Below are positions 1 to 56,998 of a stretch of 64,000 bases of DNA, in pieces. The DNA comes from Aurantiochytrium sp. KH105 (taxonomy: Eukaryota > Sar > Bigyra > Thraustochytrida > Thraustochytriidae). The DNA lies in contig BGKB01000160.1 of assembly GCA_003116975.1 (NCBI GenBank), positions 1 through 64,000 on the forward strand, read 5' to 3'. The first letter of the stretch is position 1. Each line of letters opens with the position of its first letter. The notes under the pieces are model-generated. The model had not been told where the DNA came from. It saw nothing but the letters and a program-made list of their open reading frames with translations, and made no database searches. The position numbers and the translations under genes were made by a program.

Positions 1-815
1 ATGAGTTTACATTCATCTGCGACAGAGTCTGAGCGATAGATCGATCCCTCTGCGAGGTCGATATCGCCGGCCTCTGCGAGCGCGTCCAGAGCCAGCTGTG
101 TGACATTGTAGTAGGCTTCGATCAAGGTAATGTTGCCTGCGAGCCAGGTGATCTGATTCTCGTTGTAGGTGCGATAGCTTTGGCTACGTGCGATTTCCGT
201 CAAATTGGCCTGGATAAAGGCCGCCTCGCAAGCGTCGGCGACGCGCTCGACATCTGCGGCGTACTCCTCGCGGGCGGCAGCCGAGGTTTCATACGCTAGC
301 GTATTTCCGTCGTACACCGAGTCTAGGTCGGGGACCGGGATGTACGAGTTTACGATGTACTGTGCCAGTGCGTACGATGTTAGCCACAGCCAACAGACGG
401 CGATGAGAGCGAGCCAAATTCGCTGCGGGATCCTCTGGTTTGCCACTTTGTGGCCCGTCGCCATGCCTGCTCCTTTCACGCCTCCCTTGACTTTGGCAAG
501 CATGAAGTTTGCTTTCGTTGCATGACTCGGAAGCGATCCAGCTTCTACAGTTTCAAGGTCCTCTTCGTCCGATGAGGCGCCCGAGTCCTCAAAGGCATAT
601 TCATTGTCTTCTCGCCGTGTCCCCGGTATGTGCACGTGCGTCAGGCGGCGGTTAAGGGACGCGAGACTGGGTCGCTGGCCGTTCGACCCTGTCTGGCTGA
701 GCCGGCCGCTCACGCGTCCAAACTTTGCAGACACGCGAGACACGAAGCGCCATGGCGAATGATCCACGTCGTCTTCGGACGGCGGCGGTCCGCTCGGCAG
801 AGGTGGCTGCGTCAT
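1..815 (-). CDS. Large membrane protein, N-terminal part (paralogue of the 3774-6923 gene), runs off the left edge
   Basis: On the minus strand an open frame starts with ATG at 815 and stays open to base 1, giving about 271 visible residues. The first ~120 residues are hydrophilic and partly acidic. A hydrophobic segment follows at about residues 128-150 (it includes WLALIAVCWLWLTSYALA), then an ectodomain-like stretch with several N-glycosylation sequons (NLT, NIT, NVT). From the membrane segment onward it resembles the plus-strand neighbour: both have WLTS, a YIP-x-P motif shortly after the membrane segment, a conserved CEA-x-F block, and an AG-x-ID stretch leading to a cysteine-glutamate pair. 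It lacks the four FKARPPS motifs of its neighbour. The 815 ATG is the only one found upstream of the membrane segment apart from internal methionines at 503 and 464. Function is unknown; I know of no named family. Confidence 0.7.
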   Translation of the reverse strand, partial: MTQPPLPSGPPPSEDDVDHSPWRFVSRVSAKFGRVSGRLSQTGSNGQRPSLASLNRRLTHVHIPGTRREDNEYAFEDSGASSDEEDLETVEAGSLPSHATKANFMLAKVKGGVKGAGMATGHKVANQRIPQRIWLALIAVCWLWLTSYALAQYIVNSYIPVPDLDSVYDGNTLAYETSAAAREEYAADVERVADACEAAFIQANLTEIARSQSYRTYNENQITWLAGNITLIEAYYNVTQLALDALAEAGDIDLAEGSIYRSDSVADECKL

Positions 816-1222
816 GCTAACAGTCTGTGCCTGCTGCGCAAGCTCTTGGCAGCAAGCGCCGCTCGCCTCGGCCGACCAATAGCTAGGCCAGCCCAAGCGA
901 TGCCAAGCGCAGGCTAATTCGCTTTTGTCGCTGCGGACGGGAAAGAGGCCCCCTTTCCTGCTTCTTGTTTCCCACCTCTTTCCTTCGAGTTCCCTGCGGA
1001 CGGATGCGTGTTTGTGAGTAAAAAGAAAGTCTCTCACGTGCGGCCTCACTGTCAGAATGCGCTGACTAGCCGACTTGACACGCGACGCCGGCTCGGTCTT
1101 GGAGTGATGGAAAGCAAGGATCCGGGAGGGGAGAAAGGAGAAAGCCGAGCAGCCACCAGCAAGAGCAGCGGCGGATGGGACGCGACAGGAACCAGAAGAA
1201 GGTGTCGGTGATGAATCTACGC

Positions 1223-1272
1223 TCTGTCTGTCTGTTTGTCTGTCTGTTTGTCCATCTGTTTGTTTGTCTGTC
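1223..1272. repeat. TGTC/TGTT tetranucleotide tract
   Basis: Imperfect tandem array of TGTC and TGTT units inside the divergent intergenic region. Confidence 0.85.
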
Positions 1273-3502
1273 AGCCGCCATGTCCGGCGCGGGGCTTGCG
1301 GTGACGCTTCGTGCTTTTGCTTCCGCTTCCCCCTCTCGCTCCTTCGTACCTCCCGCAGCTCGCGAACGACATCCACCATGGCCATTATTATAGCGCCGCG
1401 CCCCGGCCGATGGTTTGTTTCGTACGACAGCCTCGCCTCGGTTTGAGGTGCCTCCACCGTGCGTGCGCCACCGCCATTCGCCGGCGAGCGATGCTTGGGA
1501 TCACCTGCGAGGCGAGCGTAGATCGCCTGGCCGCAAGCGGAGCGGCGGGTGGGCGGCGCTGGCGCTTGAATTTGACCGATGGATTGGCCTTCGAATCACC
1601 AACTGCAACTGCGATTGTGGTCGCTGCGACCGATAGCGATCTCGAGGAGAAGGCGCGCAGACACTTCCCTCTCTCACGTGCGCACACCCTCATTCGCGTC
1701 ATAAGATACCCTTAATGTTTACAGTAGCTGGTTCAGCAGCGCGCCTGCACGCGCCACAGCCGTGGTGGACCGGCCTCCGACTGCGCGAGCCGATCCAGAC
1801 GCAGGCGAGGAAGGCTAACCAAGGCAAAGCATGGCAAGCTTTTGACGAGCAAGCTTAGCTGACACGCATGGCTGCCAAGCTGGATGCGACGATTCTTCAC
1901 GCAGGTATACGCGGAGGCAGGTAGGTGTACACAGCTGGCTGGACTGCAGGCACGTCCGGCCGGCCTGCTTCGCGTTCTGGGCGGAGTGGCGGAGCCAGAT
2001 CTTGGGCACTTGCTGCGCTTGCTTCAGGCTTGTGGCATCGGGGAAGGTTTCGATGATGCCCTGCTCGCCTTCGAGGAAGCGTTTTCAGCCGCGGCGCTCG
2101 CTTCTCGAGCACTCTGTCGGCGACAATCGAATGCGACTGCGAGCCGAGCAAGCAGCAGCAGCAGCAGCCAAGCGCAGACTGCGACGAAGACCTCCTCTGG
2201 CAGATCCAAGGAAAGCAACAAGGCAGGTGGCGAGAGATTCGGAAAGAAATGCAAGCTTGCATGAAACGCCATGGAAGAACTACTCACCTGCGGCTGCTCG
2301 CGTTCGTCGATCGTTTAAGGTAAGAATAATCGACCGATCGATCAATCCACTAATCCATCAATCTGACTGTTCATTCGCCACCGTGTGCGTCCCGTTTCTC
2401 GCGCGAATCATCTGAGGAGAAGCCCATTCTCGCAGTTCGTTGGCGGCGCGCGCACACAGGACGCTCGCAACAGCCTGAAAAAGCAAGACTGGATGGAAAT
2501 AGGCCTCCAATGGAACGGGATGAGATAAATTGATTTTTTATACGAATCACCAAACACCGTCACAAGGGAGAGCCACCGTCGTTCGTGCCGTGGCAAGCGA
2601 GCGAGCGAGCGGAGAAAGGCGACGAAACGGGAGAGGGACGTGGCCCGAAAAGATGCGCCAAGCCCCTGCCGGGCTTTACGAGCCGCGATATTCCGCCGTG
2701 AGTCACGGGGATCACCCGCTTGGCTTGGCTTGGCTCGGCTTGGCTTATACCTCGAGCACCCTTCTCGCCGGCCGCTCCTACCCTACCCGGGGCCGAATAC
2801 CTTCCCACAGCTTCTCCACAGCACACCCTGCGGCTGCGTTCCCTTCGCCTAGCCAAGCTGTGGGGATAAGGTGAGAAAGGAGGAGGAGGAGAAGGGAAAA
2901 GAAGTCGAGCAAGGTTGTTTTTTTATTATGTGACCCGCCAGCCACAGCCACCATTGGCCAGTTGCCAGTTGTTGACAGCACGTGCGGCCAGGAATCGCGG
3001 CGTGCTTGGACGCCCAGCACGCACGTCTCGACAAGCGCCGCATTTCCATTCTGCGCGCGGGCCACGAGCAGCCCGCGCTGTGTCTGTGTCTCCCTTCCCT
3101 CCGAGGAGTCACGGTCCTCGGGGTGGGTGGGTGGGAGGGAGGGAAAGAGCGGGAAGGGACCGCACGCGACACCGGCACCTGCATCGTGTCGGTCTCCGTC
3201 TCGCGGCAGACAGTCTTCCCTCCAGGCCTGCAAGTCGCAGTCGCAGGCACTTGGACGCTCGCTGTCGGTGGCCGCGCGGCGCGGGTCCGCTCGCTCGTCG
3301 CGCGCCGGGCCGAGCACCGATCGCTGAAGAAAGCAAGAACGCTGGCTGCAGGCATGGCAAGCTGAGCTGACTAGTTAGACTGTGAGCGAGCACGTGCACG
3401 CGCTGCGTTCTCTCTGTCTTCCTTGCTTGCCGCATCGATCTTCAGCCTTCTCGCACGCACCTTCGACAGACCCCTCTTCCGGAGCCCTCACGCGCGCTCT
3501 GT

Positions 3503-3541
<39 letters not shown>

Positions 3542-3564
3542 TCGCTCGCTCGCTCGCTCGCTCG
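3503..3564. repeat. CGCA then CTCG tetranucleotide arrays
   Basis: About nine CGCA units run directly into six CTCG units, ending about 210 bases before the ATG at 3774. The position suits the 5' UTR or core promoter of that gene. Similar CGCA arrays lie upstream of the genes at 38581 and 57950. Confidence 0.9.
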
Positions 3565-3773
3565 AAGGAAACGGACGCCAGCTAACCTGCCTGGTTGACT
3601 CGTCATTGGTGCCCTCCGTTTGTTTCTCCATCTCGTTCGGCCGCAGGGACCGAGACCAAAACCGGCACCTCGCCTGCGGAGTTTGTCTGGCCGTATGCAG
3701 GGGGGAGCTCGAACGTGAGCCAGAGCCCGTCTGCACCTGAGACGAGTAGCTTCAAAAGGAAAGCGATCAAACC

Positions 3774-6700
3774 ATGTTCAAGGCTCGCCCGCCGTCAACC
3801 CCGTACCGTGGCGTCAAGCCCACGAAGGAGGAGGAAAGCGAGCAGGACGACGAGCACATCGAAGGCCATGAGGAGGGCGAGGTCAACGAAACAAATCAGG
3901 AACCCGAGAAACGATCTGGGTTCAAGCTGTTCAAAGCGAGACCACCCTCGACGCCGTACGATGGCCTCGACATGAGAAAGAAACCGAGTGCCCGCAAGAG
4001 CTCCGCACTAAATATCTTCAAAGCTCGTCCTCCTTCCGGTCCGTACGCAGACAACGACCCACTGACCCATAATCCGAGGTTTAAGCCCAAGCTGTTCAAA
4101 GCTCGTCCACCATCCGCGGCCTTCCCCACTGATGAGGAATTCGGCCTTCCCGTCGCCACACTCGAAGATGACTCTGATGATGAAGACGAAGGTCGCGCAA
4201 GCAAAACCAAGAAAAAGCCCAATGTCGCCATTCGCATGAAAACCAGAGTGACCAAGCAAATTCGGAAAAAGCACGCTTGTGAACGTGCCTTCATGTGCGC
4301 CTTGGCCGTAAGTCTGCTCTGGCTGACTTCGCTTGTCGTCGCCAAAGAAGTCACGTACTACTTCATCCCAACGCCGACGGAGGCCTCTGTGGAGTACTCT
4401 GTTGAGCAAAGCGTTCAAGTCACCAAGGATCAGCGGGTTGCATACGAGGAATGCGCCACGGAGGTGCTGGCCTCTTGCGAGGCTACCTTTACGCGCGACG
4501 ATACAGCTGAACTCGAACGAATCCAGATCATCCAAGAGGCAATTGCTGAGGAGCTCGAGCGCATCAAAGACGAGATCGTCGCCTGTAGCATCGCCTTCAT
4601 CAATGCCACGGACTGGCTCGATGCTGCAACCACCGCAGGTGCAATTGATAGCTCCAATGTCATCACTTCGGGTCCTGCCATTTGCGAGAGTACAGACCTT
4701 TCTGAGTTCATCACATCGGAGGCCCTTGCTGCAGATGCTGTGTCGCAAGTGGAAAACTACCAAAGCGAAGCGGACGAGCAAATCAATAGCCTCTACGACT
4801 CAATCTACGCACGTTCCGCGTACAACACCGAGTTCATGGATAACCTCACCAACGGCCAATTCTCGGAGATCTCGAGCTCGCTCACGTCGAATCTGACATC
4901 TGCATCAGATGTCATCGATGCTGTTGACACTCTCTTTAGCGACTTTATGGCCTGTGTGTCTCTGGACTCTTCGTACGAGAAACAAGACGGCACAACTGTG
5001 CAATGCGACTCAACGAGCGTTTTCGGCCAGGCACGCTCTCAGTTCGAAGAGATGGAAAACACTTACCAAAGCCTCCTTGAGGAAGCTCGCTCGTTCCGAG
5101 AGTCCATTGAGGCGAAGATGGCGCGATATCAAGAGCTTTACGATCTAGTGACTCAAATTGTCGGCGTATTCTCCGCTGGAGGGATTTCCATCAACCTGTA
5201 CCTGTCAACCGTTGATCTCGGGTTCACGGATTACTTGGAGAGTCTCGTTGGAGATGCTTTTGACTCTCTTTCTAACCTCATACCCGATCCCGAAGAGATC
5301 TACGACGACATGGTCGCACAGGCCGAGTCATTCATGGACGATATGTTTGGCGAGGGATCGCTCATCGAAATCTCCAACGCACTTTACGAAGGCAACGCCA
5401 CAGCCCTGACAACGACAATCTTTGATGACTACGACCCACCCTACGTGAACGAGACGCTTTATGAAGAACAGCAAGCGGCCTCTGCATCTGTGGTCAGCGA
5501 CGTGGCAAGTGAGCTGGACTCCGTCACGTCTGAGGAGAATGGCACATCCATTCTGGACGATTTTGTCGAGTCCGTGGGAACCAACATTTCTGAGGCCGCA
5601 GCAACCTTGCTTGACAAGGCCGACCCCCGCGAGTGGTCGTCCTTTTTCTCATACAGTGACGACATTTTCAATCAGTTTTCGACGGGCATCACAAATGCAA
5701 ACGACCTCGCCTTAGCCTTCGATTACGCCTACCGCATCATTTATTCCTTCATGCTCATTCGAAAATACTGGAACATCTCGGCCATCAACACGCCACCTGC
5801 AGACGTACGCACCAAGGCTGGCATCAAGGCAGGCACTTTTCAAGTCAAGACCAACATGATGCAAAAGGTTGGCAAGCTCCTCGCCAGTCCTGCGCTCGCG
5901 ATTTTCATCATCCTGCTCTTCCTCTGTCTCTTTGGTTATGCATTCTACTACGCGTACAGCCCAATCTACGAAGAATATGTCAACAATTGCGTCGACAAGT
6001 GCTACTTTGACATTCAAAACACGATTCGCGATGACGACGGTAATCTGCGATACGACGCACAGGCCGAGGGCACCATGCTCTACCGCAATGCGTACGTAAT
6101 TGCCCAACAGTACGCCTTTAGCGACGGTGATTACGTGGCGTCCACAGAGGTCGACTCCTTGGGCGTCACAATGGAGCTTTCGTGCAGCAATAGGACAATC
6201 ACGAGCATCCAGAGCCAATCCAATGAGGACGATAAGCTCGACTACTACAACACACGAGCGGACAGTCTTATCCCCAAATTCGAGTATTTGCGCACGTGTG
6301 TGGACACTGCAGCGATTCGAGATGCGCACCCTGAATACGACTTTTCCGAATTGATCTCGGACAGCACCTTGCCCGAGTGCGTGCGCAACTTTTCTTCCTT
6401 TGAGACCTTTCTCGAGACGGCGAGTCTCACCGTGCTTCAGCTTGATCGCACATATGACTGCAACAACATTGCTGCTTGCGACTTTGAATGTTCGGGTCCA
6501 AATGAGGCAATCCTGCGCGGTGTCACGTTTAACACAGCGTGCACGAGCGAATGGTATGCGCACGCCGAGCTTTTGTGCTTCTTTTGCGCGATTCTTGGGT
6601 ACATCACCTCAAATTTGGCGCGACTCATCTTTCTTAACGGAATTGTCAAGGTCAGCTGGCGTCACCTTAGCTCGCATCGATTTGCCCTCATTGCCTCTTG

Positions 6701-6923
6701 CCGTGAGGATGGCTCAATCGTCTATCCCGAGGAGGTCACCGAGAAGGGCGAGTCTTTCCGCAAGGTCATTGTGCGCCAGCTGCGCGTCGCAATTCGGGCC
6801 TTTGAACGTCGCGGTTGCTTGATCACTCTCTTTGGCATTGCTGTTGTCATTCCGTGGATTGCCATCCTCATGGCACTCAACAGGAATCTCGGATTCGACT
6901 CCGAAAAGTACTGTGAGACATAG
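3774..6923 (+). CDS. Large multi-pass membrane protein with four FKARPPS motifs
   Basis: The ORF has 1049 residues; an in-frame stop at 3747-3749 fixes ATG 3774 as the first start. The cytoplasmic-looking, acidic N-terminus carries FKARPPS four times (residues about 2-8, 53-59, 82-88, 108-114), mostly followed by Pro-Tyr or a variant of it. A first membrane segment lies at about 172-190, then a ~510-residue region with many acidic and Ser/Thr residues, NxS/T sequons and coiled-coil-like stretches. A second membrane segment is at about 702-730, then a cysteine-rich loop, a third at about 932-960 and a fourth at about 1015-1035. Two large loops between few membrane spans recall prominin or tweety topology, but no sequence signature supports either. 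The minus-strand gene at 1-815 is a paralogue. It converges with the GTPase gene, 166 bases away. Function unknown; the gene itself is secure. Confidence 0.9.
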   Translation: MFKARPPSTPYRGVKPTKEEESEQDDEHIEGHEEGEVNETNQEPEKRSGFKLFKARPPSTPYDGLDMRKKPSARKSSALNIFKARPPSGPYADNDPLTHNPRFKPKLFKARPPSAAFPTDEEFGLPVATLEDDSDDEDEGRASKTKKKPNVAIRMKTRVTKQIRKKHACERAFMCALAVSLLWLTSLVVAKEVTYYFIPTPTEASVEYSVEQSVQVTKDQRVAYEECATEVLASCEATFTRDDTAELERIQIIQEAIAEELERIKDEIVACSIAFINATDWLDAATTAGAIDSSNVITSGPAICESTDLSEFITSEALAADAVSQVENYQSEADEQINSLYDSIYARSAYNTEFMDNLTNGQFSEISSSLTSNLTSASDVIDAVDTLFSDFMACVSLDSSYEKQDGTTVQCDSTSVFGQARSQFEEMENTYQSLLEEARSFRESIEAKMARYQELYDLVTQIVGVFSAGGISINLYLSTVDLGFTDYLESLVGDAFDSLSNLIPDPEEIYDDMVAQAESFMDDMFGEGSLIEISNALYEGNATALTTTIFDDYDPPYVNETLYEEQQAASASVVSDVASELDSVTSEENGTSILDDFVESVGTNISEAAATLLDKADPREWSSFFSYSDDIFNQFSTGITNANDLALAFDYAYRIIYSFMLIRKYWNISAINTPPADVRTKAGIKAGTFQVKTNMMQKVGKLLASPALAIFIILLFLCLFGYAFYYAYSPIYEEYVNNCVDKCYFDIQNTIRDDDGNLRYDAQAEGTMLYRNAYVIAQQYAFSDGDYVASTEVDSLGVTMELSCSNRTITSIQSQSNEDDKLDYYNTRADSLIPKFEYLRTCVDTAAIRDAHPEYDFSELISDSTLPECVRNFSSFETFLETASLTVLQLDRTYDCNNIAACDFECSGPNEAILRGVTFNTACTSEWYAHAELLCFFCAILGYITSNLARLIFLNGIVKVSWRHLSSHRFALIASCREDGSIVYPEEVTEKGESFRKVIVRQLRVAIRAFERRGCLITLFGIAVVIPWIAILMALNRNLGFDSEKYCET

Positions 6924-7089: not shown

Positions 7090-10000
7090 TCACCGATCGC
7101 GTGTGTGCAAAAGCAGCTTTTCCTCGAGCAAAAATGTGAGACGTGGGACCTTCGCATACGAGAGGCCGTGCTTCTCCGCAAAGTTCTGCGCGAGCATGGC
7201 AATATCGTCACCCTGGTGCACGGAAATACGCTCCATTTTGGAAGCGCCAATATTGACATCCAAGTGAAAAAGAGGCGCCGAGTCTTGGTTCATTTGCGTT
7301 CCGAATGATGGAACCTCTTCCACACCACCCTTGCTCTGGCGCAGGCCTGCTTTGTGCATATCGCTCAAAGCAGGAGGTCTTCGACTCTCGTCGTTCTCAA
7401 CGCGCTCGTCCTCTTGGTCCTGCTCGGCCTCTCGTGCAGCCTGCCAGCCCAGAGTGGCGTGCAAAAGTTCGCGCTGACGTTGCGTAAGGACAGAAGGATA
7501 GCGCACCGGTGAAGGAAGTTGCTCGGTCGGGTCAAAATATGGTGCTGGCGGGTCAAGGTGGGTTTTTACATGAGGAGGAGGAGGTGCTCGGACAGGCACA
7601 CCTCTGTTTGTCCCGTGACTCGCATCCCTCTCGAGGTCCTCGAAATCTTGCGATTGGTTCGTAGACGTCAAGTTACCTTGAGGTCGGAGACCTCGCACCG
7701 GAACGCCATGATTAGAGTAAGAACTCGCCGCCGATGAGAGACTAGCGCCAAAAGGGCTCTCGGGGACGGCCCGAAAAGACTCGTTCTCGTGAGGGGCATG
7801 AGATCGCAGACGCTGCGTTTCAGGCACGGTAACCAAACCTTGGTGCTTGGACTCATCGTCATCTTGGCTATTATAATGAAGGCGAAGTTGCAGAGCAACG
7901 CGCTCTTCAATCTCTGCAGCCTGCCGTGCTCGAAGGCCAAATGTTTTCCGAAAACCCTCCACGACCTGGGTGGGATCGTCGCCCTCGCGCACGGTCAGCT
8001 TACCGATTCGCCCAGGCCCAACTTTAACATGCAGCGTTCCAATGACTGGTCCATTTGATGGACGCATGCTGCGAGGTAATCCCCGAACGCGATGTTGGGA
8101 CTGACGTCGCACAGGTGCGGGTACCGCGTCCGCGACCGCGTTTTCCTTGTCGTTTCTTCTTGAAGACGGTTGGTGGGCGAGGCCCGGTCCTTTCGAGGCA
8201 CTGGAACGTGTCGACGGCAAGCTTGATGCCGGTGTGGTCAATGCAGGTGCAGAGAGGCCCTCTGTTCCATAGAATTCAATCATTCGATCATGCAGCAACC
8301 GCCGAAGTTTGGGCTGCATGCTGCGCTTGAGCCTGTGCGTTGCTACAAACGCCGAAGCTAGCGCCGAGGGATCGTTTCCACGATGAACAGAGATCGTGCC
8401 CACGAGTCTACCCTCCATATTAACATCAACATACATTTCCGGCACCGTAGCCTCGCTGGCCCCTTTCGAGTGCATCGCAGATGATGCCGATGACGCTCGA
8501 CGTTGGCGCGTGTCGCGTGATCCCGTCTGACGCGAAGGCCCTTCTTTGTGAGTGTGTCCAAACGATGATGTCTCGCTAACGTTTCCATTCTCTACAGCGT
8601 CATCGTCGTTCTTGACCTTGCGCGCAAATGACTTGGTCGACCGTTTGTGCAAAGTCATATCCTCGGGACGGATAAACCTTCGCGAGGCTGGCGGCGCAGA
8701 CACAATGCTGGATCGGGAAGGCCGAGACCATCGAGCCTCCTGACGTGGGGGATCAGCGGCGCTTTGCTTCTCAGTCTTGTGCCCTGCCGTAGCACTAGGG
8801 CCATTTTCGTGACGCTCGATATCCCGATCAACTTCAGTTGGTCGTTCGTCCTCGTTGCGCGTAGGACGTGTGTGTTGCACGGTGTAGCCCCCAGATCGAT
8901 GAAGACGAAGACCGCTCACCTCGGTATGCGCAGGCTCCTGGCGTCGATCGTATTGCCCATAGGTGCTCGTAGCGTCGTTGAGAGATCCAGTAAGACTTTC
9001 TGGTTGCGCGATGTCGGTTCCTAGATGTAAGGCCGAACGAACTGTCCCCGCGAGACGCTCCACCTCATCCTTGGACTCTGTGGGCGGACCCCGTATGGAG
9101 GCTGTCGATGCAGAGCCCAGGCCGGCCACATAGGAATCTCCAGGTCCAAACATCTTGCTTGCTGAAGTTCTTCGGCCGCCACCATTTCGATTTGGGGCGT
9201 CAACTTCAAGGCCAGCGCTGACATTAAGATTTTCAATGTCGCGCGCAAGCACGCCACGGTCGCTATCATCATGTTCATCCACGCCAAAGGTTGCCGGTGG
9301 AGATGGCTTGGAAGGTCGGCCCAAAATAGCACTAATGGTCATGGCATTCGACGAGAGAGGCGTCAAGGCATGCTCGTCAGAGTCGGCATGGCCCGGCGAG
9401 ACCTCTTGCCCTGAGCCAGAAATTTGAGGCGATGTCCCGGAGAGCGACAACCCAACGCTCGGGACCCAACCTTGTGAGTCGTCCGCTGGCAAGCGGTCTT
9501 CATTTTCGTACGAACATGTCGACAGAGGTTGCTGAGAAGAGGTTTGCTGACTTTGACGGCTTCCATGCGCAAAACTATTAACTCGAGATGAACGCGGACT
9601 CGAGCGCAAGGACTGTCTAGATTTTGCGCCCCTTCCGGCTGAATCGTGCTCAGCACTTCCTCTCTTGCTAGCAAACGCCCCAGTATGAAAGTCTTCGTAG
9701 CTGCCATGATCTGCATACTCCTCATCGTCGTCATTTTCGCCATCCTCCAAGTCTCCGTGCAGATCCGCGTTCAGCGTGTGCTGGGCACGGATGCGGAGCA
9801 ACGAGAGCGTGAGATCAACGTTTTCGTGCGTACGAGCACTCATTTCCATAAACAAGAGGCCATGGTCGCGGGCAAATTCCTCGACCTCGGCGACCTCAAC
9901 CGACCGCACCGAAGACTGGTCCACCTTGCAGCCAATGAGTACAATAAATTTGTCGGGAGCCGCTGCCCGCACTGCGTCGAGCCAACGCGTGGTGGCTTGT

Positions 10001-10476
10001 TCGTAGCTATTTGAATCAGTGACGTCATAGAGAATGAGAGTGCAAATGGCGCCGTCGAGCATTCGCTCGAGACGCACATTGTCCAGGGAACGGGTGCCAC
10101 AGTCCCAAAATTGGGCACGCATGCGTGGGCCCGGATCAAAGTCATCAATGTTGGCTACTTGTCCAGCGCCATTCTCCATCAGGTATGCGCTGTCAACTTC
10201 GTCATCTTCGTCGCCGTACGAAAGGCTGCTTCGCGTTCTACGCCTGCGATGATTCGCCGCCGGTACCGCAGGGGCCGGGAGCAGCGCATCCCAGATGCGT
10301 ACGTCGCCACTTTCATGATACGCATCTTGGAATGGAAGTCCACTAAAGGCGCGTAGAGCGCTGGTCTTGCCAACAGCTTGCTCGCCGACAACAGCAACTT
10401 TGAGGCAATAAACCTGTTGAGGCTCGTGCTGGTTCGCAAGCGTCCAGTCTTGCTGTATCTCACCCTCGGATTCCAT
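7090..10476 (-). CDS. Atypical Rab/Ras-like GTPase fused to a long linker and three C-terminal repeats
   Basis: The protein has 1128 residues with ATG at 10476. Residues about 24-230 form a small-GTPase-like domain: P-loop GEQAVGKTS at 31-39, then ~50 inserted, acidic residues where switch I would be, then WDCG at 124-127 in place of WDTAGQ, CKVD at 183-186 in place of NKxD, and SAR at 213-215. The shortened G3 motif and missing glutamine suggest weak or absent GTP hydrolysis. Residues about 230-670 are low complexity and probably disordered. Three ~55-residue repeats follow, at about 677-735, 808-865 and 1068-1125, each with a VxV-x(10)-I-x-VHxGDD-like core, then a helix with FA-xx-HGL and a leucine-rich end. 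I recognise this repeat type loosely from other protist proteins but cannot name it. It is divergent from the phosphatase gene at 11058. Confidence 0.88.
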   Translation of the reverse strand: MESEGEIQQDWTLANQHEPQQVYCLKVAVVGEQAVGKTSALRAFSGLPFQDAYHESGDVRIWDALLPAPAVPAANHRRRRTRSSLSYGDEDDEVDSAYLMENGAGQVANIDDFDPGPRMRAQFWDCGTRSLDNVRLERMLDGAICTLILYDVTDSNSYEQATTRWLDAVRAAAPDKFIVLIGCKVDQSSVRSVEVAEVEEFARDHGLLFMEMSARTHENVDLTLSLLRIRAQHTLNADLHGDLEDGENDDDEEYADHGSYEDFHTGAFASKRGSAEHDSAGRGAKSRQSLRSSPRSSRVNSFAHGSRQSQQTSSQQPLSTCSYENEDRLPADDSQGWVPSVGLSLSGTSPQISGSGQEVSPGHADSDEHALTPLSSNAMTISAILGRPSKPSPPATFGVDEHDDSDRGVLARDIENLNVSAGLEVDAPNRNGGGRRTSASKMFGPGDSYVAGLGSASTASIRGPPTESKDEVERLAGTVRSALHLGTDIAQPESLTGSLNDATSTYGQYDRRQEPAHTEVSGLRLHRSGGYTVQHTRPTRNEDERPTEVDRDIERHENGPSATAGHKTEKQSAADPPRQEARWSRPSRSSIVSAPPASRRFIRPEDMTLHKRSTKSFARKVKNDDDAVENGNVSETSSFGHTHKEGPSRQTGSRDTRQRRASSASSAMHSKGASEATVPEMYVDVNMEGRLVGTISVHRGNDPSALASAFVATHRLKRSMQPKLRRLLHDRMIEFYGTEGLSAPALTTPASSLPSTRSSASKGPGLAHQPSSRRNDKENAVADAVPAPVRRQSQHRVRGLPRSMRPSNGPVIGTLHVKVGPGRIGKLTVREGDDPTQVVEGFRKTFGLRARQAAEIEERVALQLRLHYNSQDDDESKHQGLVTVPETQRLRSHAPHENESFRAVPESPFGASLSSAASSYSNHGVPVRGLRPQGNLTSTNQSQDFEDLERDASHGTNRGVPVRAPPPPHVKTHLDPPAPYFDPTEQLPSPVRYPSVLTQRQRELLHATLGWQAAREAEQDQEDERVENDESRRPPALSDMHKAGLRQSKGGVEEVPSFGTQMNQDSAPLFHLDVNIGASKMERISVHQGDDIAMLAQNFAEKHGLSYAKVPRLTFLLEEKLLLHTRDR

Positions 10477-16293: not shown

Positions 16294-17083
16294 ATGCACG
16301 CCGAGTCATTGCTCGGCTCACGCGGGCCAGCTGTACCGCGGCCCAACAACCCGCGCGCGTTCATGGACATTCGAATCGGAGACATTCCCGTTGGGCAGCT
16401 CGTATTCGAGGTACGTTGAGACGAGAGACTGCCAGCATTGCAAACAAGACGCCAGTGTGCGCAAATGCTAGATGCGAAAGCATGAACAGTACATAGTCTC
16501 TAACAAGCAAGATGGAGGACCGTCAGCTTCGCAAGGACCTTGCCACACGTACTTGCGAGAACTTTCTCAAGCTTTGCAGTGGCGCAGCAGGACTCTCCGA
16601 CTCTGGCTTTGAGCTTTGCTACAAGGGATGGTATGTTTCCTCTTTTCTTTTCGTTTTTTCGAAATACCGCGACACCAGAATCGTGTTTGCAATGAAAGAC
16701 GTCTAACCTGGCCGTCGGGGAATACTTGCGTCAGTGCTTTTCACAGAATCGTTCCCAACGAGGTATGCCAATGCGGCGACTTTACCAAAGAGGACGGCAC
16801 CGGCGGTGAGAGCGTTTTCGGCGCAGAGTTTGAGGATGAGACCTTTGCCATGACACATGCGGGACCGGGCGTGCTCTCCATGGTCAACTCTGGACCGGAC
16901 TCGAACCGAAGCCAGTTTTTCATCACCTTTGCGCGCATGCCCAGCCTTGACAATCATCACGTCGTTTTCGGCTACGTCATTGAAGGCATGGATATTCTTC
17001 GTCGGATCGAGGCATGCGGGTCTATGAGCGGGAAGCCCCGACAAACAGTGACCGTGAGCGACTGCGGCATTGTCCGCGAATGA
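16294..17083 (+). CDS. Cyclophilin-type peptidyl-prolyl cis-trans isomerase, three exons
   Basis: Exons are 16294-16410, 16512-16630 and 16735-17083, giving about 194 residues. Intron 1 (16411-16511, 101 bases) runs GTACGT to CAAG after VFE, phase 0. Intron 2 (16631-16734, 104 bases) runs GTATGT to TCAG and splits the Cys codon of YKGC, phase 2. The spliced reading gives a continuous cyclophilin fold: NPRAFMDIRIGDIPVGQL, CENFLKLC, YKGCAFHRIVPN, CGDFTKEDGTGG, GPGVLSMVNSGP, SQFFITFA, HHVVFGYVIEGMD. The active-site Arg (FHR), the Gln of CQ-x-GDF and the His before VVFG remain, but Phe-Met after IVPN is Glu-Val and the tryptophan of the WLD-x-xH block is Ser, which usually lowers cyclosporin A binding. 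ATG 16153 upstream is an alternative start that would add 47 residues. Confidence 0.88.
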
Positions 17084-24717: not shown

Positions 24718-27700
24718 CTATTTGGCTGCTACCTGGGCTGCCATGCCAAGATGGTCAGCGACGATCATTTCTCGCGTTGCGTCCTTGGCAAGCACAGCGG
24801 CCACAAGATCTGTGATGCGTCGATCTTGGTGCGACTCNNNNNNNNNNNNNNNNNNNNNNNNNNNNNNNNNNNNNNNNNNNNNNNNNNNNNNNNATCGCGT
24901 CAAGAGCCCGCAGCGCAGATCGAATCTCGTTGTTGGCATGATTGACGACAGATCCCTGGGACTCCTTGACGGTCTTGTTGAGCGTCTGAGCCAGAGGCTC
25001 GAGAACAGTGCCAACCTCGCTCAACAGCACGTGCGGCGAGCGCTGAGCAATCTGCACGAGGATCTGATGGCAAAGCATTTGCACCTCGTCCACGTCGCCG
25101 AGACCCTTGGCCAGGTGCGGGAGCAAGTCCACGACAGAGACCGTTTCAGGAATCGTATCGAGCATTGTGAGAATGCAAGAGAACGAAGCCTTGCGCAGGG
25201 GCAAACCGTCGTCAACCACATGCTTGAAGGGTCCGAGGTCAACAGTACGCTTGAGAGACGGGTCGACACTCATATCTTTGAAGAGCGCCGGCACAATGCG
25301 ATCGCGCGCGACACCGTGAATGACTGCCGTCCGATGGTGCGCGAGTGAGGTGAAAGCGACAATGGCGGCGCGACGAACATGAAGGTCCTTGTCGTCGAGG
25401 AGGTCGACAAAGGTACCAATGTTTTCACGGAGGGCGTCGACAGGCTGGTCGCTGTTGCTGGCAAACTTGAGGGCCATGACAAGTGTGCAGCGTGCCATAG
25501 GCTCCTCGGCAGACTTTTGCACGGCCTGCGCCAGGTACGGTACGATTTGGCTCGGCTTGAGAATGGCAAGCTTGCCAAAGCACTCTGCCACCATATTGCG
25601 CACGCCTTCTTCGGTGCTGCGGCAATGCCGCTCGAGCACGGGAACAATATCGTCCACAGGAAGCGCCGAGGTCGCAGCGGCCTTGGAACTGTTGTGACGC
25701 ACGATAACCTCGCGAAGCGAGCTGAGCAAAAGGTATTGCTGGGCTTCCTCTTTGCGTTCATGGAGCGCCGTCATGAGCAGAGGCAAGTAGGAAGGCATAT
25801 TGCCCAGCGTGAGGTTACCCAGCGCTGTCGCTGACGCCGATTTGACCTCTTCGGGACAGGATTTGTTGTCCAAGCACGCGAGTACGGTCGAGTACGCCTC
25901 GCCGGAGATGGACGCCAAGTCCACGTCACGGCCCACTTCGCCGAGCGAGAGAAGCGCCAGGTTCATTTTCGTCATGGCAAGATCGTCGCCCCCGGCTGCA
26001 CCACCCTTGACATCCTCGATGATCTTGTTCACCGTGGCGTCGCGCTGGGACGTGTCCGGACACGAGGTGCAAATGGTGCCGATGCCCCGGGACAGCGAGG
26101 ACACTGCACTCTTGGAAAGCTTGATCGAAGAATCCTGCGAAGGGCGGACCACCATCGCAAGCACCTCGTCAAAGGTCAGCGGCGCGATCTGCAGACGCAT
26201 GAGCAGCGCGAGAAGCTGGAGAATTGAATCGAGGGTGGTGCCTCCCGTCTGCAGCAGCGACGAGGTCATGAGCTGGATGCACCGCGGCAACACGCTTCCG
26301 GCGGTAATGGCAACGATATCCTGTTTGTCGGGTGCCTGCTCCAATGCGGTGATGCACAGCGATACAGCCATTTGGCTCAGATACAGGTCGCGATCGTCGA
26401 TGAGCTTGGCGGCATTCTCGAGTGCCTCCTTGTAGAGGGCCGGCTCGAGTGAGCTTGGGCTCGACTTGATGAGCTCCCGCAGGGTCGAAAGAGTATTTTG
26501 CTTGAGCGTGCGGCTTTGCTGGCGCAAAAAATTGACGAGGTCGCCCACGAGACTCGCCACGGCAGCGCTCAAATCAAGGCGGAGAGGCGAGGAGGCAATT
26601 TCCTCGATGCATTTGAGGGCGGGCAGACGCGTGATCTCGTTGCGAAGGCGCTCTTGCAAAAGCTCCAGAACGCCGCTGAGGTCGCCTATGAGCATGTCAC
26701 CGCATCGTGAGAATAGCGCGCCCATGGCAAAGATGGCACACTCCTTGATTTCCTGGTCAATGTGATGAGTCTGAAGACGCGGGAGAATTGCCTCGAAGCA
26801 GGGACGCACGAATGGTGCACATTCAAAGTCAGAGGCAGCAGCATCGGCCATGTCAACATCGTCACCGGTACCCTTGGCGCGAGGCCGGAAGACGGCAACC
26901 ATGACGGCAATCACGCGCAAAGCCTCTGCAGCGATCTTGTACCATTCCGCGCCAGCACACGCGAGGATCGGAGGGGAAAGCTTCTCAAGGTGCGGCTGGA
27001 TGCACGTGGCTGGATGCGTCTCAAAGAGCTTGCCAATGAACTGGAGACAAGCAAAAATGAGCGAGGAGTCCCGATCGAGACGCATAGAGTCGACGAGAAG
27101 GGGAACGAGGGTCGGGACATGTTTCTCGAGGCCTCCGCCCAAAAGAAGCACGAGCTCTTGGAGCAACTCAAAGGTGCTTGTGCGTGTTTTCTCAGCTTTC
27201 TTCTCCTTGAGGATCTTGCACGTGACCTTGACGATCTTGGGAACATCCTCGGCAATGCGTGCTCGAGCTTGGCTGTTGGAGCGCGCTGATTCCTGGGCGG
27301 CGGCGCTGTTGGATGTCTTGGAGCCCAGAGTCAGGCTCGATCCACCACGAAGCGTGCGCAAGAGCACCGAGTAGCAACTGACGAGGTCGAGACGGACATT
27401 GTCGTCGCGCTCCTTGAAGCAATTGAGCAACAGGCCTCCGCATTTGGCGTAGATTTCGTCAAGGGAGTCTGGCCGCGAGATGATGACGGCACGCACAACC
27501 TTGACAGATGCACGGCGCACCTTCCAGCTCGTGTCGTCTTCGTCCGAGTACTCGTCGTCATCATAGTCCTCGTACTCTTCATCGTCGTAGTCGTCCATGG
27601 CTTCCATGTCCTCGCCGTCGTCATCCTCATCGTTGTAATTGTAGTTTGGATCGTAGCGCAGAAAGGCAAGGGTGGGTTCAAGGATTTCCGGAATGTGCGA

Positions 27701-28579
27701 AGCAGCCTCATGGGGGCAGCGAATGACAAAGGACTCGAACGCATGAAGAATGTTCTCTCGCAGTTCATCAGACTCTTCCGTTTGCATGGACTCGTCGCCG
27801 GGCTTTTTCAGCGAGGCGAGAAAAAGAGGCACAATGCGCTGCAAGTGCGAACCGAGTCTGAAGCCGACCATGCGTGAGATCGTGCCGATGGTCTGGATCA
27901 AAGTACGCTTGTCACTGCCCGGCTTGGGGTTTTCGATCTGCTCCAGGAGCGTTTGGATGATGCGATCGAGGAGGTCGTCCGAGACAACCGTGGCCAGACG
28001 GCCAAGGCAGGCGGCAGCCCGCTTGCGCACGGCCGGCTTGGGAAAGGAGAGCTGCTGGAGCGCAGTCGTGGAGATGTGGCTGTGCTCAGAGGTCATGGAG
28101 CCGCCGTAGAATTTGATGAGGTCCGTAAGAAGATCAAGGCACTCGAGCTTGATGCTCTCGTCCTGGTCCATCTTGACGCCTCCAAGGAGACGCGAAGCGA
28201 GGTCCATGGCAATCTTTGGCCCCATGCTTGCAGGGAGAGTGCCGAGACACGTCTTGAGCCCAATGGCGTAAATGTCGCGGAGGTCGGCCTTGCCAGAAAG
28301 GATGAGGTTGGCGAGTTTGTTACAAATATCGCGTACCTGCGTCTCCTCGACCTTTTTCACCAGAATATTCAGGCACCGGACGGCCACCGTTTGCACGTCG
28401 TTCGAGCTGTCGTCGAGTCGCTCGAGAATCTTTTGGCAAATGCGCCGTTCCAGGTGGATGTCCATCTTCACTTCGCCCTCTAGGCCGCGGCACAGATCGT
28501 TTACGGCCATGTACCGCTCATCCTTGTCGTAATCGCTGGTCTTCTCCAGGAGCGCAGTCACCTCTCGCGCGCTCGCCAT
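24718..28579 (-). CDS. CAND1: Cullin-associated NEDD8-dissociated protein 1 (CAND1 / TIP120)
   Basis: About 1286 residues of HEAT repeats from ATG 28579 (MASAREV); codons upstream are in frame but include no ATG. The N-terminus matches CAND1 (LLEKTSDYDKDERYMAVNDL, RDIYAIGLKT, AVRKRAAACLGRL). The acidic YDPNYNYNDEDDDGEDM insertion followed by DTSWKVRRA is diagnostic. The C-terminal TIP120 region is present (VDLGPFKHVVDDGLPLRK). CAND1 binds un-neddylated cullins and exchanges F-box substrate receptors in SCF ubiquitin ligases. A run of 56 Ns (24838-24893) interrupts the last ~70 codons. After the gap the frame that makes sense reads DLVAAVLAKDATREMIVAD and stops at TAG 24720-24718; it differs from the frame before the gap, so the true gap length is unlikely to be 56. 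Confidence 0.95.
24838..24893. other. Assembly gap (56 Ns)
   Basis: Unknown bases inside the 3' end of CAND1. The coding frame on the two sides differs, so the N count is not the true length. Confidence 1.
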
Positions 28580-29407
28580 GGTTGCGACGGGAGGAAAAGC
28601 GGGCGAGGAGAATCGATGGATCGCCTGCTTGTTCTCCGACCGCAACGTCGAGACGTGCGGTCCGTGAGCTCACGGGGTGAGCCTGTCGTGGACGGGCGAC
28701 GGAGGTCGCCACGCTGACGGCTTTCTACCTCGGGAGCGACGGACGCACGTGGGAGAGTTGCGGTCCGCAACTGCAACAACAGCCAGCTGCGACTTTGCCT
28801 TCTTCATCATCAAAAAAGATATTTTTTTATTTTATTTTTCAAGGCCTACCTCTTCTTCTTTGGTGACTCATCAGAGAAGAAGGGGGGAGGAGGAGAATGG
28901 ATGAGGATGGACAACGAATCGGGCAGGAGCAAAAGATGCTCAGGATCAGTCTGGCTATGTGTATTACTCGCATGGTAAGTCTGCCTCGCATGATGCAAAT
29001 GATTCGCATGATGTGAATCACTCGCATGATGTCCATAACCCTCATGATGTTGATGACTCGCATAACAAGTACGACTCGCATGATAGCGTAGATAGGAGGA
29101 GAAAGAAGCCACGAATTGCAGGCTTTCCCTAATATCATTGCTCTCCAACGTCGAAGTAGACATGGTTCTAAACTTGGTCAACAATCGATAATCTTCGTAC
29201 CCGAGCTGTCCTGGGGTCTAGTTTCCCGGAAAGCTGTCACCTCGCCTCAGAAGGAAATGGAATGTCAGATAAATCTTGCTTATGTTCCTATCCGCCCACT
29301 CTTTTATTACACACAGGCGATGCAATGTTTCGTATCGCTGCAATTCGTTGCCATTCGTTTCATTTCGTTTGGCGAAGGTTTTAATGCTGGTTTGGCAACA
29401 AAGTTGA
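28580..29407. other. Intergenic region upstream of CAND1
   Basis: Holds the CAND1 promoter and 5' UTR, a perfect inverted repeat around 28757-28772 (GTTGCGGTCCGCAAC), the ATGATG-type minisatellite at 28970-29085, and the 3' end of the glycosyltransferase gene. No gene was seen. Confidence 0.6.
28970..29085. repeat. Imperfect CTCGCATGATG minisatellite
   Basis: Degenerate units of 15-20 bases built around CTCGCATGATG or CTCATGATG, about seven copies, in non-coding DNA between CAND1 and the glycosyltransferase. Confidence 0.75.
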
Positions 29408-53816: not shown

Positions 53817-54733
53817 CAAATAAGTAGACGCACCTCTCTCCTTTCAATTCTTACCCTCCTTCTTCTGTTCCTCGCGGCACGTCCATTCGTTCATTCGTCC
53901 ACTCGTCCATTTGTCCATTCGTCGTATACTTCACATTGACAGTGAGCACGAAATCTCGTCGTAACGCACTACTTCTCTTTCCGACTCGAAGACACTTCTT
54001 TGCTTATGCACGCCTGGCCGTCACATCATCCAACGAGCGGAAGGCGGGCAGGGCGATGCTACGTGAAGCGCGCGCCCTGCCTGCCTGCCTTTCCGTCGAG
54101 ACCTCGCCTTGCCACGGAAATAGTCTTCGCTTGGCCAGCGGGGCAGTTTTTTTCCATTTTGCCCGATTTTGCCAAGGGACGACTGGACTGCTCAAAATTC
54201 ATCGAGCAATGCGCTCGCGGTCGCGTCTGCACGGGACGCTTCGAGGAAAGGTGCGGCCGGAAAAGTGCGAGAGAGGCGGAACGCGTAACGTGCGAAGGCG
54301 GAAAGCCGGGCGATGGAAGAGGGATACTTTGCAACCTGCATTTGTTTGCGCATCGAAGGCAGACGATCGCATTGCTGACATTGGACGCATGTAATGCCTC
54401 CAAAGTAGGAAAGAACTCCTGCTAAACCATCCACTCAGCAAGCGACCATCCTTCATCGCTGCAAGAAGCATCATCTCACTAGTTGCGTCTTTTGTGAGAT
54501 TTATCTATATCCATTCACGCCGAAGGTACTCGAGCAGGAAATGGATACAATACTTGAAGGAATGATCGCTCTACCATCGCGACACTTGAGGGGAGCTAAA
54601 AGCCTCCTACACATGCTTCGGGCGCGTGCTCGAGACTGGTAAACAAGAAGCGGACTCGGGACGAGATGGAAACGATGTCCCACGCCAATGGCGAGCAAAC
54701 CCAAAACTCGGGACTTGGCCAAGATCAAAAATC
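52249..54733. other. Intergenic region
   Basis: About 2.5 kb. Contains an acceptor-like sequence at 52706-52708 (long pyrimidine tract then GCAG), a minus-strand open frame around 52819-53229 with no recognisable motif, a GGCA array (53781-53817) and CATTCGTC-type units (53886-53925). No gene is called. Confidence 0.5.
53781..53817. repeat. CAGA/GGCA array
   Basis: Two CAGA units followed by eight GGCA units in non-coding DNA. Confidence 0.9.
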
Positions 54734-56998
54734 ATGAAGAACATGCTCCGAGCCGCCGCAGTGCTCTTGGCAGCGCTAGGCCTGGCTGCCTCTGTAAACG
54801 CTGCATCCGAAGCAGTCGGCGTCGGCCCGAGCTCTAGCTGCGCCCCCTACGACGTTGTCATGATGCTCGACGCATCAACCAGTAAAAATAACTTCCGCCT
54901 CGCTCAAAATATCGCGCTTGCCATCGCCGCAGAATTCGACATCGGCGTTACCGCATCCAAGGACCGCGTCACGGCGTTCAGTTTTAGCAACAAAGCTTAC
55001 AAGTCGAGGCAGCTCTGGCAGGTCAAGAACAGTGGTTACTTTCAAAGGCTCATCACGTCCATGTCAGTCACTCGGTCCTCCGACACCAACGTGCCCTACG
55101 CAATCGACCTTGCTGGACGAATGATCAACAAGCAGTCACGTGGTGCCACCGAGGTCATCATTCTCATCTCCGATGGCGCAGTCAATTTCGCGCGCTATAG
55201 CAAGAACCTCGTGGGCAGCGTGTGCTCCAACATTGACAGTGCCAAAGATTTCTCTGACGAAGCCATCGAAGAGTGCATTCACGCTCAGCTCCTTGATCTC
55301 GTTGACGAGGATGGCATGAAATTCATCTACGTTCCCATCGGCGATAGCCCGATCCTCCCTTCCGCGCCTCTCGACGCCTACGTAGAGGTGCCATCTGATC
55401 TCACTGACGAGTCGACGATTGCCTCCGGTGTTGCCGAGCTTGTTTGCGACGCTAATGCAGAGGTCACGCCCAAGGGATGCGGAGATCCCGTCGACATTCT
55501 CTTTGTCGTTGATGCATCCCTCACTACCAGCGACGAGGACCTTGCCGAAGCTTACAAGTTCATTCTCGAATTTGCCTCTCGCTGGGCAGGCCATGCACGC
55601 TTTGGCCTGATCGAATACTCGACAGTCGTCAACGAAAATTTCCCGCTTGTCAATGATGATGGCAGCGCCTACTTTGACTCGGCCTCGGACCTCGCAACTG
55701 CTGTAAATGGCATTACTCACACGGATGAGCAGCGGCAAAATACCAACATGCCTCTGGGGCTTCTGGCCGCGCTTGGCATAATTGAAGAGGCGAAGACACT
55801 TGATACCGAATTGGCGCACGGCGCACGATCTACTATTGTTGTGCACATTGGTGATGACGTTCCAAACGTAGAGTGGGAGTATGGCCGTCTGCCCACTCTT
55901 TGCGCAAACTACAACAAAGAAAACAAGTATCCGAAAAAGGCCGCCAAGGCGTGCACGCAAAAGTTTGTCAAGCAGATCCGCAGAGTGGCCGACTACCTTG
56001 CTGTCCGTGTCGGGAACGAGCAGGGTAGCGCGTCTCTGTACCAGAAGATTAAACCTGCAGTGGATTTGTACAAGGTCGAGGAATACGCGAGCTGGCATGC
56101 CCTTGTGGATCAACTGGTCGACGATCAGTGTGAGACCAGCCTGCTTGGCATCACTCCAAGCCCCACAAGCGCGCCAACCGAGGCACCGACGGACGCGCCC
56201 ACAGATGCGCCAACCAAGGCACCATCAGATGCTCCAACGGATGCACCAACCGAGGCGCCCACAGAATCGCCAACCGAGGCGCCCACGTTGAGCCCGGTAA
56301 TCTTCATCGAAGGATGTTATCATCAGTACGTCATTAACAAAGCCCAGGCAAATCACAAGCTTGGATCCTTTGAAGACAACGTAGGCATCCAGCTCCCGGA
56401 GCAGTGTCACTCCAAGTGTGTCGAGACCGAGGGCTGCAATTACTGGAGTTTTCGTGCGCAGAGCTCCTGGGAAGGCGAGAATGCAGCTGCGCAATGCAAT
56501 CTCATGAGCGAGCTGCGGGAAGCAGCTTCTACTGCATCCGAAAGGTGGACCTCGGGATCAAAGTTTTGCACGAATGCCCCCACGGCTGCACCTACGGATG
56601 CTCCTACGGACGCGCCGACTAACGCACCAACTGATGCTCCAACGGATGCACCTACACCTGCTCCAACGGATGCACCCACACCGGCGCCAACTCCTACGCC
56701 TACTCTTACACCTACAGATGCGCCAACAGATACGCCAGCTTCGTGCTGGCTCGGTGTGAGCTACGTCTGGGACGGTGTGAGTAATTTACATGAGTACTAT
56801 CTGTCGTACACCACTCATTCCGACGAAGAAACGGCAGAGGATTGTCAGCTTCGTTGCCGCAATGTCCCAGGCTGCGGCTTCGCTGTCTTGGATAAAAGTG
56901 CTCTTCTCGAAACCGCGTACTGCGACTACTATACCGCTGATCCTGGCCTGACGCCCGCGTTAGGAAGTGTTGATGTAGCTGGCCCAGCTTACTGCTAA
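54734..56998 (+). CDS. Secreted protein with two VWA domains, PT-repeat linkers and cysteine-rich modules
   Basis: The protein has 754 residues from ATG 54734; upstream codons in frame lack an ATG. A clear signal peptide (MKNMLRAAAVLLAALGLAAS) is followed by a VWA domain at about 39-240 with an intact metal site motif DASTS and IILISDG. A second VWA domain runs from about 252 to 440 (DILFVVDASLTTS, VVHIGDD). Then come a PTEAPTDAPT linker (about 474-520), a cysteine-rich module with CHSKCVETEGCNYWSF (PAN/WSC-like), a second PTDAPT linker (about 614-670) and a second cysteine module ending at the C-terminus (CQLRCRNVPGCGFAV). No membrane anchor is visible after the last module. PT repeats of this kind are typical of stramenopile cell-surface proteins. 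Likely an extracellular adhesion or matrix protein. AATAAA lies just after the stop. Confidence 0.88.
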   Translation: MKNMLRAAAVLLAALGLAASVNAASEAVGVGPSSSCAPYDVVMMLDASTSKNNFRLAQNIALAIAAEFDIGVTASKDRVTAFSFSNKAYKSRQLWQVKNSGYFQRLITSMSVTRSSDTNVPYAIDLAGRMINKQSRGATEVIILISDGAVNFARYSKNLVGSVCSNIDSAKDFSDEAIEECIHAQLLDLVDEDGMKFIYVPIGDSPILPSAPLDAYVEVPSDLTDESTIASGVAELVCDANAEVTPKGCGDPVDILFVVDASLTTSDEDLAEAYKFILEFASRWAGHARFGLIEYSTVVNENFPLVNDDGSAYFDSASDLATAVNGITHTDEQRQNTNMPLGLLAALGIIEEAKTLDTELAHGARSTIVVHIGDDVPNVEWEYGRLPTLCANYNKENKYPKKAAKACTQKFVKQIRRVADYLAVRVGNEQGSASLYQKIKPAVDLYKVEEYASWHALVDQLVDDQCETSLLGITPSPTSAPTEAPTDAPTDAPTKAPSDAPTDAPTEAPTESPTEAPTLSPVIFIEGCYHQYVINKAQANHKLGSFEDNVGIQLPEQCHSKCVETEGCNYWSFRAQSSWEGENAAAQCNLMSELREAASTASERWTSGSKFCTNAPTAAPTDAPTDAPTNAPTDAPTDAPTPAPTDAPTPAPTPTPTLTPTDAPTDTPASCWLGVSYVWDGVSNLHEYYLSYTTHSDEETAEDCQLRCRNVPGCGFAVLDKSALLETAYCDYYTADPGLTPALGSVDVAGPAYC

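Follow-up and report, generated by a model that had tools for sequence, protein, structure and literature searches.

The two divergent genes at the start of the window (the whole 64,000-nucleotide stretch analysed here, which starts at base 1 of its contig, C160) encode homologous membrane proteins, as judged from their sequences, and stand for two old subfamilies rather than for a pair of recent duplicates. The minus-strand gene (P0001, positions 1 to 815) encodes the N-terminal 271 residues of a minus-class protein, namely a tail, the first membrane pass and the start of ectodomain 1; the open reading frame (ORF) runs off C160, and its remainder lies beyond the contig start. The plus-strand gene (P0002, positions 3774 to 6923) is a plus-class single open frame of 1,049 residues with an allele on contig C38. 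Both ORFs were found where the initial annotation had placed them. Between their start codons lie 2,958 bases (positions 816 to 3773), a candidate two-way promoter; the start codons are putative, being the first ATG of each frame or one picked by likeness.

Homology of the window genes and their relatives in the genome

BLASTP aligned P0001 and P0002 with 35 of 133 identities (26%, E 7e-9), the alignment beginning just before the membrane segment. Their local score was 113, compared with a mean of 41 for shuffled sequences, and none of 1,000 shuffles scored as high; under a null preserving the composition of the membrane segment, the maximum over 1,000 shuffles was 67. The alignment continues past the first membrane segment, and the ectodomains still aligned once that segment was removed (score 68 versus 40 for shuffles, with 0 of 1,000 as high), so the homology begins at that segment and extends into the ectodomain. 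Before the membrane the two proteins had been described as different, and their cytosolic tails are indeed not alike beyond chance (70 of 1,000 shuffles as high); neither protein matched a known unrelated family. The possibility of a chance resemblance between similarly composed membrane segments, for which a direct identity of just 26% could speak, is refuted by the shuffles, all 1,000 of which the ectodomain alone outscores, and by the link through a further family member, P0003, which aligns with P0002 over 917 columns (E 4e-73) and is 53% identical to P0001.

As to the motifs that the two ORFs were said to share, WLTS, CEAxF and AGxID are present in both, but YIPxP is not: one protein has YIPVP, the other FIPTP. 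Across the five aligned members, what remains of these motifs is W and the final S in WLTS, the leading P of IPxP (P199) and, from CEA, the C (C235); AGxID is not kept family-wide. A possible third family copy at window positions 16655 to 16801 (a match to P0001, E 0.004) falls in another ORF, which we take to be a cyclophilin, and was set aside as chance.

Elsewhere in the window, ten other ORFs, from among 33 of at least 300 residues, each match at least one common Pfam family; no tRNA was found in the window, and nothing among the window features seen suggested a mobile element. An ORF of 1,128 residues on the minus strand (7090 to 10476) carries a domain of the Ras type (Pfam Ras, E 2.7e-20), and visual inspection shows three repeats of about 35 residues, spaced apart and of the form V(D/N)..G.I.VH.GDD...LA..F...H.L, towards its C terminus. 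Another long minus-strand ORF (24755 to 28645) is HEAT-repeat-like, presumably CAND1-like, and ends in 20 unknown residues from a run of N. A plus-strand ORF (54626 to 56998) encodes a protein that looks secreted and has VWA domains as well as PT-rich repeats.

A search of the 76-Mb assembly (367 contigs) with P0002 as the query, which more distant members could escape, returned 13 matches, 12 of which are family members at six places. Each place occurs on two near-identical contigs, which we read as two haplotypes. P0002 (plus class) and the P0001 part (minus class) are on C160/C38, P0006 (plus class) and P0003 (minus class) on C299/C263, and P0005, a 900-residue protein of a third class, on C70/C181; the sixth place is a 69-residue C-terminal piece at the very end of each of C299 and C263. 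The thirteenth match, on C36 (E 0.38), was taken as unrelated, its ORF being without family features. Each family match is one open frame uninterrupted by stops; in BLASTP the four full-length members align with one another over 808 to 1,050 columns, and all five proteins can be aligned together. P0005 has the tail of neither class and, within the matches found, stands outside the paired arrangement.

Purifying selection acts between the alleles: dN/dS between haplotypes was 0.061 for P0002, 0.028 for the P0001 part, 0.078 for P0006 and 0.145 for P0005, the P0003 allele being left out, with dS of 0.06 to 0.10 in the four genes compared. The haplotypes differ at about 6 to 10% of synonymous sites in these four genes, a high heterozygosity.

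Among the genes on C299/C263, each window gene is most similar to the one of its own class. P0001 and P0003 are 53% identical over 268 columns, most of the tail included, and P0002 and P0006 are 57% identical, tail included, versus about 26% for the two window genes and about 25 to 28% between classes generally (BLASTP). An unrooted tree of the shared N-terminal block (from alignment column 225 up to where P0001 stops, 160 columns at most) joined P0001 and P0003 with a support of 99, with P0002 and P0006 apart at 92. On C299, P0003 (minus strand) and P0006 (plus strand) also stand head to head, with 2,166 bases between their starts; comparison of the 2,958- and 2,166-base intergenic regions gave no convincing common promoter element (12 short matches, the best of 19 bases, E 0.005). 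Synonymous sites have reached saturation between P0002 and P0006, and for P0001 and P0003 dS is about 2.9, so the duplication of the head-to-head unit is ancient. The proposal of a duplicated, uncharacterised membrane family with differing cytosolic tails is thus supported. That its copies changed cytoplasmic partners can fairly be drawn from the conserved, unlike tails, but two old subfamilies take the place of a recent duplicate pair.

The 69-residue C-terminal piece, which lies on the minus strand, is 75% identical to P0003 and 34% identical to P0002. This piece closes C299 and C263, and P0001 is truncated at the ends of the other contig pair (at the start of C160 and, in its allele, at the end of C38); most simply, these contigs would be neighbours with one minus-class gene across the gap, which would give an alternating array of P0003 (minus), P0006 (plus), P0001 (minus) and P0002 (plus). 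At the ends of C160, C38, C299 and C263, both haplotypes break inside apparently the same minus-class gene, with about 2 kb missing on each.

Predicted topology and comparison with known families

The first membrane pass was predicted at residues 133 to 151 of P0001 (positions 363 to 419, minus strand; hydropathy 1.92) and at residues 172 to 190 of P0002 (4287 to 4343, plus strand; hydropathy 2.25). In P0002, all of whose features lie on the plus strand, the pass is followed by a putative ectodomain 1 (residues 193 to 642; 4350 to 5699) with 15 positive and 87 negative charges, 7 sequons and 6 Cys. A weak candidate second pass (residues 643 to 664; 5700 to 5765; hydropathy 1.14), which holds a conserved D and R, is succeeded by a basic loop and by a third pass (residues 704 to 727; 5883 to 5954), where hydropathy peaks at 2.84 over residues 702 to 720. 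Ectodomain 2 (residues 728 to 933; 5955 to 6572) carries 13 positive and 36 negative charges, 2 sequons and 9 Cys, and is closed by a fourth pass (residues 934 to 954; 6573 to 6635; hydropathy 1.68); a fifth pass is predicted at residues 1015 to 1034 (6816 to 6875; hydropathy 2.61). The hydropathy of the second pass is 1.14 in P0002, 1.02 in P0006, 1.52 in P0005 and 2.06 in P0003. In P0002 the hydropathy segments themselves cover residues 644 to 662 for the second pass, 936 to 954 for the fourth and 1015 to 1033 for the fifth. A further peak within ectodomain 1 of P0002 (residues 462 to 480; 1.54) was not counted as a pass, since P0003 and P0005 show nothing comparable where they align with it.

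The charges of successive P0002 loops alternate (+15/-87, +6/-1, +13/-36 and +12/-7), with the same signs in the other three full-length members. Nine cysteines are invariant in the four full-length members, at positions 235, 304 and 394 of ectodomain 1 and at 739, 804, 842, 896, 902 and 923 of ectodomain 2. Two sequons of P0002 run against this topology, one in the tail and one in the first inner loop. Together, the hydropathy, charge, sequons and conserved cysteines suggest a cytosolic N-terminal tail, five passes and two acidic, disulphide-bonded ectodomains, which would be glycosylated and located at the surface. The better structure model, built from six sequences, consisted almost entirely of helices but was weak (pLDDT 49.4, pTM 0.36). 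Confidence is highest in the first helix of ectodomain 1, at about residues 210 to 260 (pLDDT 72 to 80), and further helices run from the third pass into ectodomain 2 (residues 706 to 741) and from ectodomain 2 through the fourth pass (residues 911 to 973); the candidate second pass is below a pLDDT of 40. According to this model, the ectodomains may be largely helical.

No Pfam family matched any of the five members above the cut-off. At E values up to 10, in a scan whose HMMER filters drop most weak matches, 10 families are listed, each matching one member; those of P0002 below the cut-off include PAH_ZNF598 (E 0.0038), ATG17_like (0.011), MFS_1_like (0.034) and SR_plectin_7 (0.46), and P0001 has none. 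No relative by sequence emerged from the PDB (best E 1.1 with phmmer, and 0.34 with a profile, which gave 8 rows). Among viral contigs, P0002 had no pattern match and the query A2 had 15, with 0 confirmed, and among prokaryote genomes 0 of 39 pattern matches were confirmed. The family looks real and is unplaced among the Pfam, PDB, viral and prokaryote sequences compared. Nor was there a sequence or structural match to a membrane-shaping family in Pfam, in the PDB, or among solved structures compared with the weak model.

Three known systems invite comparison. Prominins have five passes and two large ectodomains, as predicted for this family, and the model here is helical. However, in the excerpted account of the prominin criterion, passes are grouped 2+2+1, extracellular loops exceed 300 residues, and inner loops are under 25 residues (PMC11405016), whereas the prediction here is 1+2+2 with the N-terminal tail inside, a second extracellular loop of 206 residues, and inner loops of about 39 and 60 residues. 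Removing the first pass of a prominin and adding one at the end gives the pass order predicted here; Prominin (PF05478) was not among the families that Pfam listed for the five members at E values up to 10. Tweety proteins likewise have five passes with extracellular loops between them, but ectodomain 1 is about 450 residues here versus about 120 in Ttyh, as given in the same excerpt (PMC11405016). Tweety (PF04906) was likewise absent from that Pfam list, and a search of the genome with its profile gave two matches, both elsewhere and none at the family genes. These weak matches (C25, 564613 to 564711, and C199, 18641 to 18739) score 21 bits, compared with a cut-off of 31.8, and lie in open frames of about 1,450 residues.

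Prm1 is a mating cell-fusion protein with a cytosolic N terminus, four passes and two extracellular loops. The first four predicted passes here fit this order, and the family would resemble yeast Prm1, by description, in having two extracellular loops with conserved cysteines; it differs in the predicted extra fifth pass at the C terminus and in its repeated tail motif. The portion of the yeast study seen here describes Prm1 as multipass, with conserved cysteines in its two extracellular loops, and C120 and C545 as linking a covalent dimer (PMC2868043). Literature searches found nothing joining thraustochytrids with prominin, Prm1 with prominin and tweety, or labyrinthulomycetes with the ectoplasmic net and a membrane protein. 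An Aurantiochytrium proteome reports, in its excerpted text, candidate ectoplasmic-net proteins with membrane and extracellular parts, which are too divergent for inference (PMC12221091).

Cytosolic tails and the FKARPPS motif

As the initial annotation had counted, the P0002 tail carries four FKARPPS motifs, and P0001 has none. A pattern search located them at residues 2, 53, 82 and 108 (positions 3777 to 3797, 3930 to 3950, 4017 to 4037 and 4095 to 4115, plus strand), and the four copies use differing synonymous codons. A looser pattern found no further place in the six frames of the window. The P0006 tail holds two FKARPPS copies together with one KRPPS and one KRPS variant, and the motif is absent from P0003 and P0005, as from P0001. 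Genome wide, a degenerate pattern gave 14 matches, and 0 with the reversed control; since the search skips very common words, rarity is not provable from this count. Plus-class genes account for 11 of the 14 (4 in P0002, 3 in its allele, where the fourth motif on C38 has K changed to R, and 2 each in P0006 and its allele). The matches on C9 and C35 apparently represent one place on two haplotypes, with frames of 144 and 168 residues that are unlike each other and probably not a gene, and the match on C74 reads FKARPPC. FKARPPS is a conserved mark of the plus class and, within the reach of a single pattern search, is confined to it. Both the plus and the minus class have retained their own type of tail.

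What the motif does may be read in two further ways, the less improbable of which is that each FKARPPS repeat serves as a phosphorylation site recognised by a phospho-binding protein, a reading that we consider unlikely. The K-x-R-x-x-S within it resembles, we assume, basophilic kinase sites, and RxxS/T exceeds shuffled expectation in P0002 (5 of 2,000 shuffles as high) and P0006 (4 of 2,000); this excess gives no independent support, because every FKARPPS contains one. Moreover, the F and A are also conserved, although such a site does not need them, and P0001 shows no excess (1,062 of 2,000) and P0003 little (108 of 2,000).

No mention of FKARPPS was found in the literature; for FKARP, TPX2 alone was relevant among the matches listed. 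If FKARPPS acted like the FKARP of TPX2, the plus-class tail would tie the surface membrane to microtubules or to the nucleation machinery, which we regard as very unlikely. Both share the five letters FKARP in repeated form, but the conserved unit here is the longer FKARPPS, it sits in the tail of a membrane protein, and the Pfam scans list no TPX2 family domain for any of the five members. In TPX2 itself, moreover, the excerpted source describes FKARP as having no identified function (PMC10284871).

Possible function of the family

As a tentative best guess, the family may form a surface scaffold that shapes or joins membranes, with two partner classes and class-specific cytosolic docking. 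Its members would be surface proteins that keep their N-terminal tail in the cytosol, cross the membrane five times and expose two large ectodomains, acidic, glycosylated, disulphide-bonded and largely helical; they would assemble into an oligomeric scaffold working in the manner of prominin, tweety or Prm1. Retained side by side in divergent orientation, the two subfamilies would be co-expressed and act as partners; the repeated FKARPPS would provide multivalent docking of the plus subunit to a cytosolic partner, and the minus subunit would dock elsewhere. The homology and class structure, the second head-to-head pair, the class-kept tails, the concentration of FKARPPS matches in plus-class genes, the low allelic dN/dS, the alternating loop charges with sequons and cysteines largely in the two acidic loops, the nine invariant cysteines and the helical model speak for this proposal. 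Against it, plus-class members have a second pass of low hydropathy, with low model confidence there, and P0002 has sequons in its tail and first inner loop. A divergent arrangement alone does not prove co-expression, the intergenic regions gave no convincing common element, P0005 stands apart from the pairs among the matches found, and no match links the family to membrane-shaping proteins.

A somewhat less probable explanation is that these are adhesion, receptor or uptake proteins whose acidic ectodomains bind calcium, matrix or nutrients, the tails only sorting the two classes to different membrane regions, with neither membrane shaping nor partnership between classes. The extreme acidity of ectodomain 1 and the class-specific tails would suit such a role, and no finding favours membrane shaping in particular. 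However, conservation is highest in the candidate second pass and the basic loop behind it, where 13 of 61 positions are invariant in the four full-length members, compared with 25 of 450 in ectodomain 1, which suggests that the membrane part does more than anchor. A bolder version of the scaffold proposal, which we think quite unlikely, would make the two classes the partner subunits of a membrane-remodelling or cell-fusion machine not described before, the head-to-head unit having been duplicated whole and one class alone in this genome carrying a private FKARPPS docking code. If the host is a labyrinthulomycete, such a paired-subunit machine could serve the ectoplasmic net.

If the scaffold proposal holds, this would be a surface family of five-pass proteins not described before, in two tail classes that were already distinct when the gene pair was duplicated and have stayed so. 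It would offer a clean case of one membrane core with two conserved cytosolic docking codes, and its members would be candidate surface markers for a poorly known lineage.
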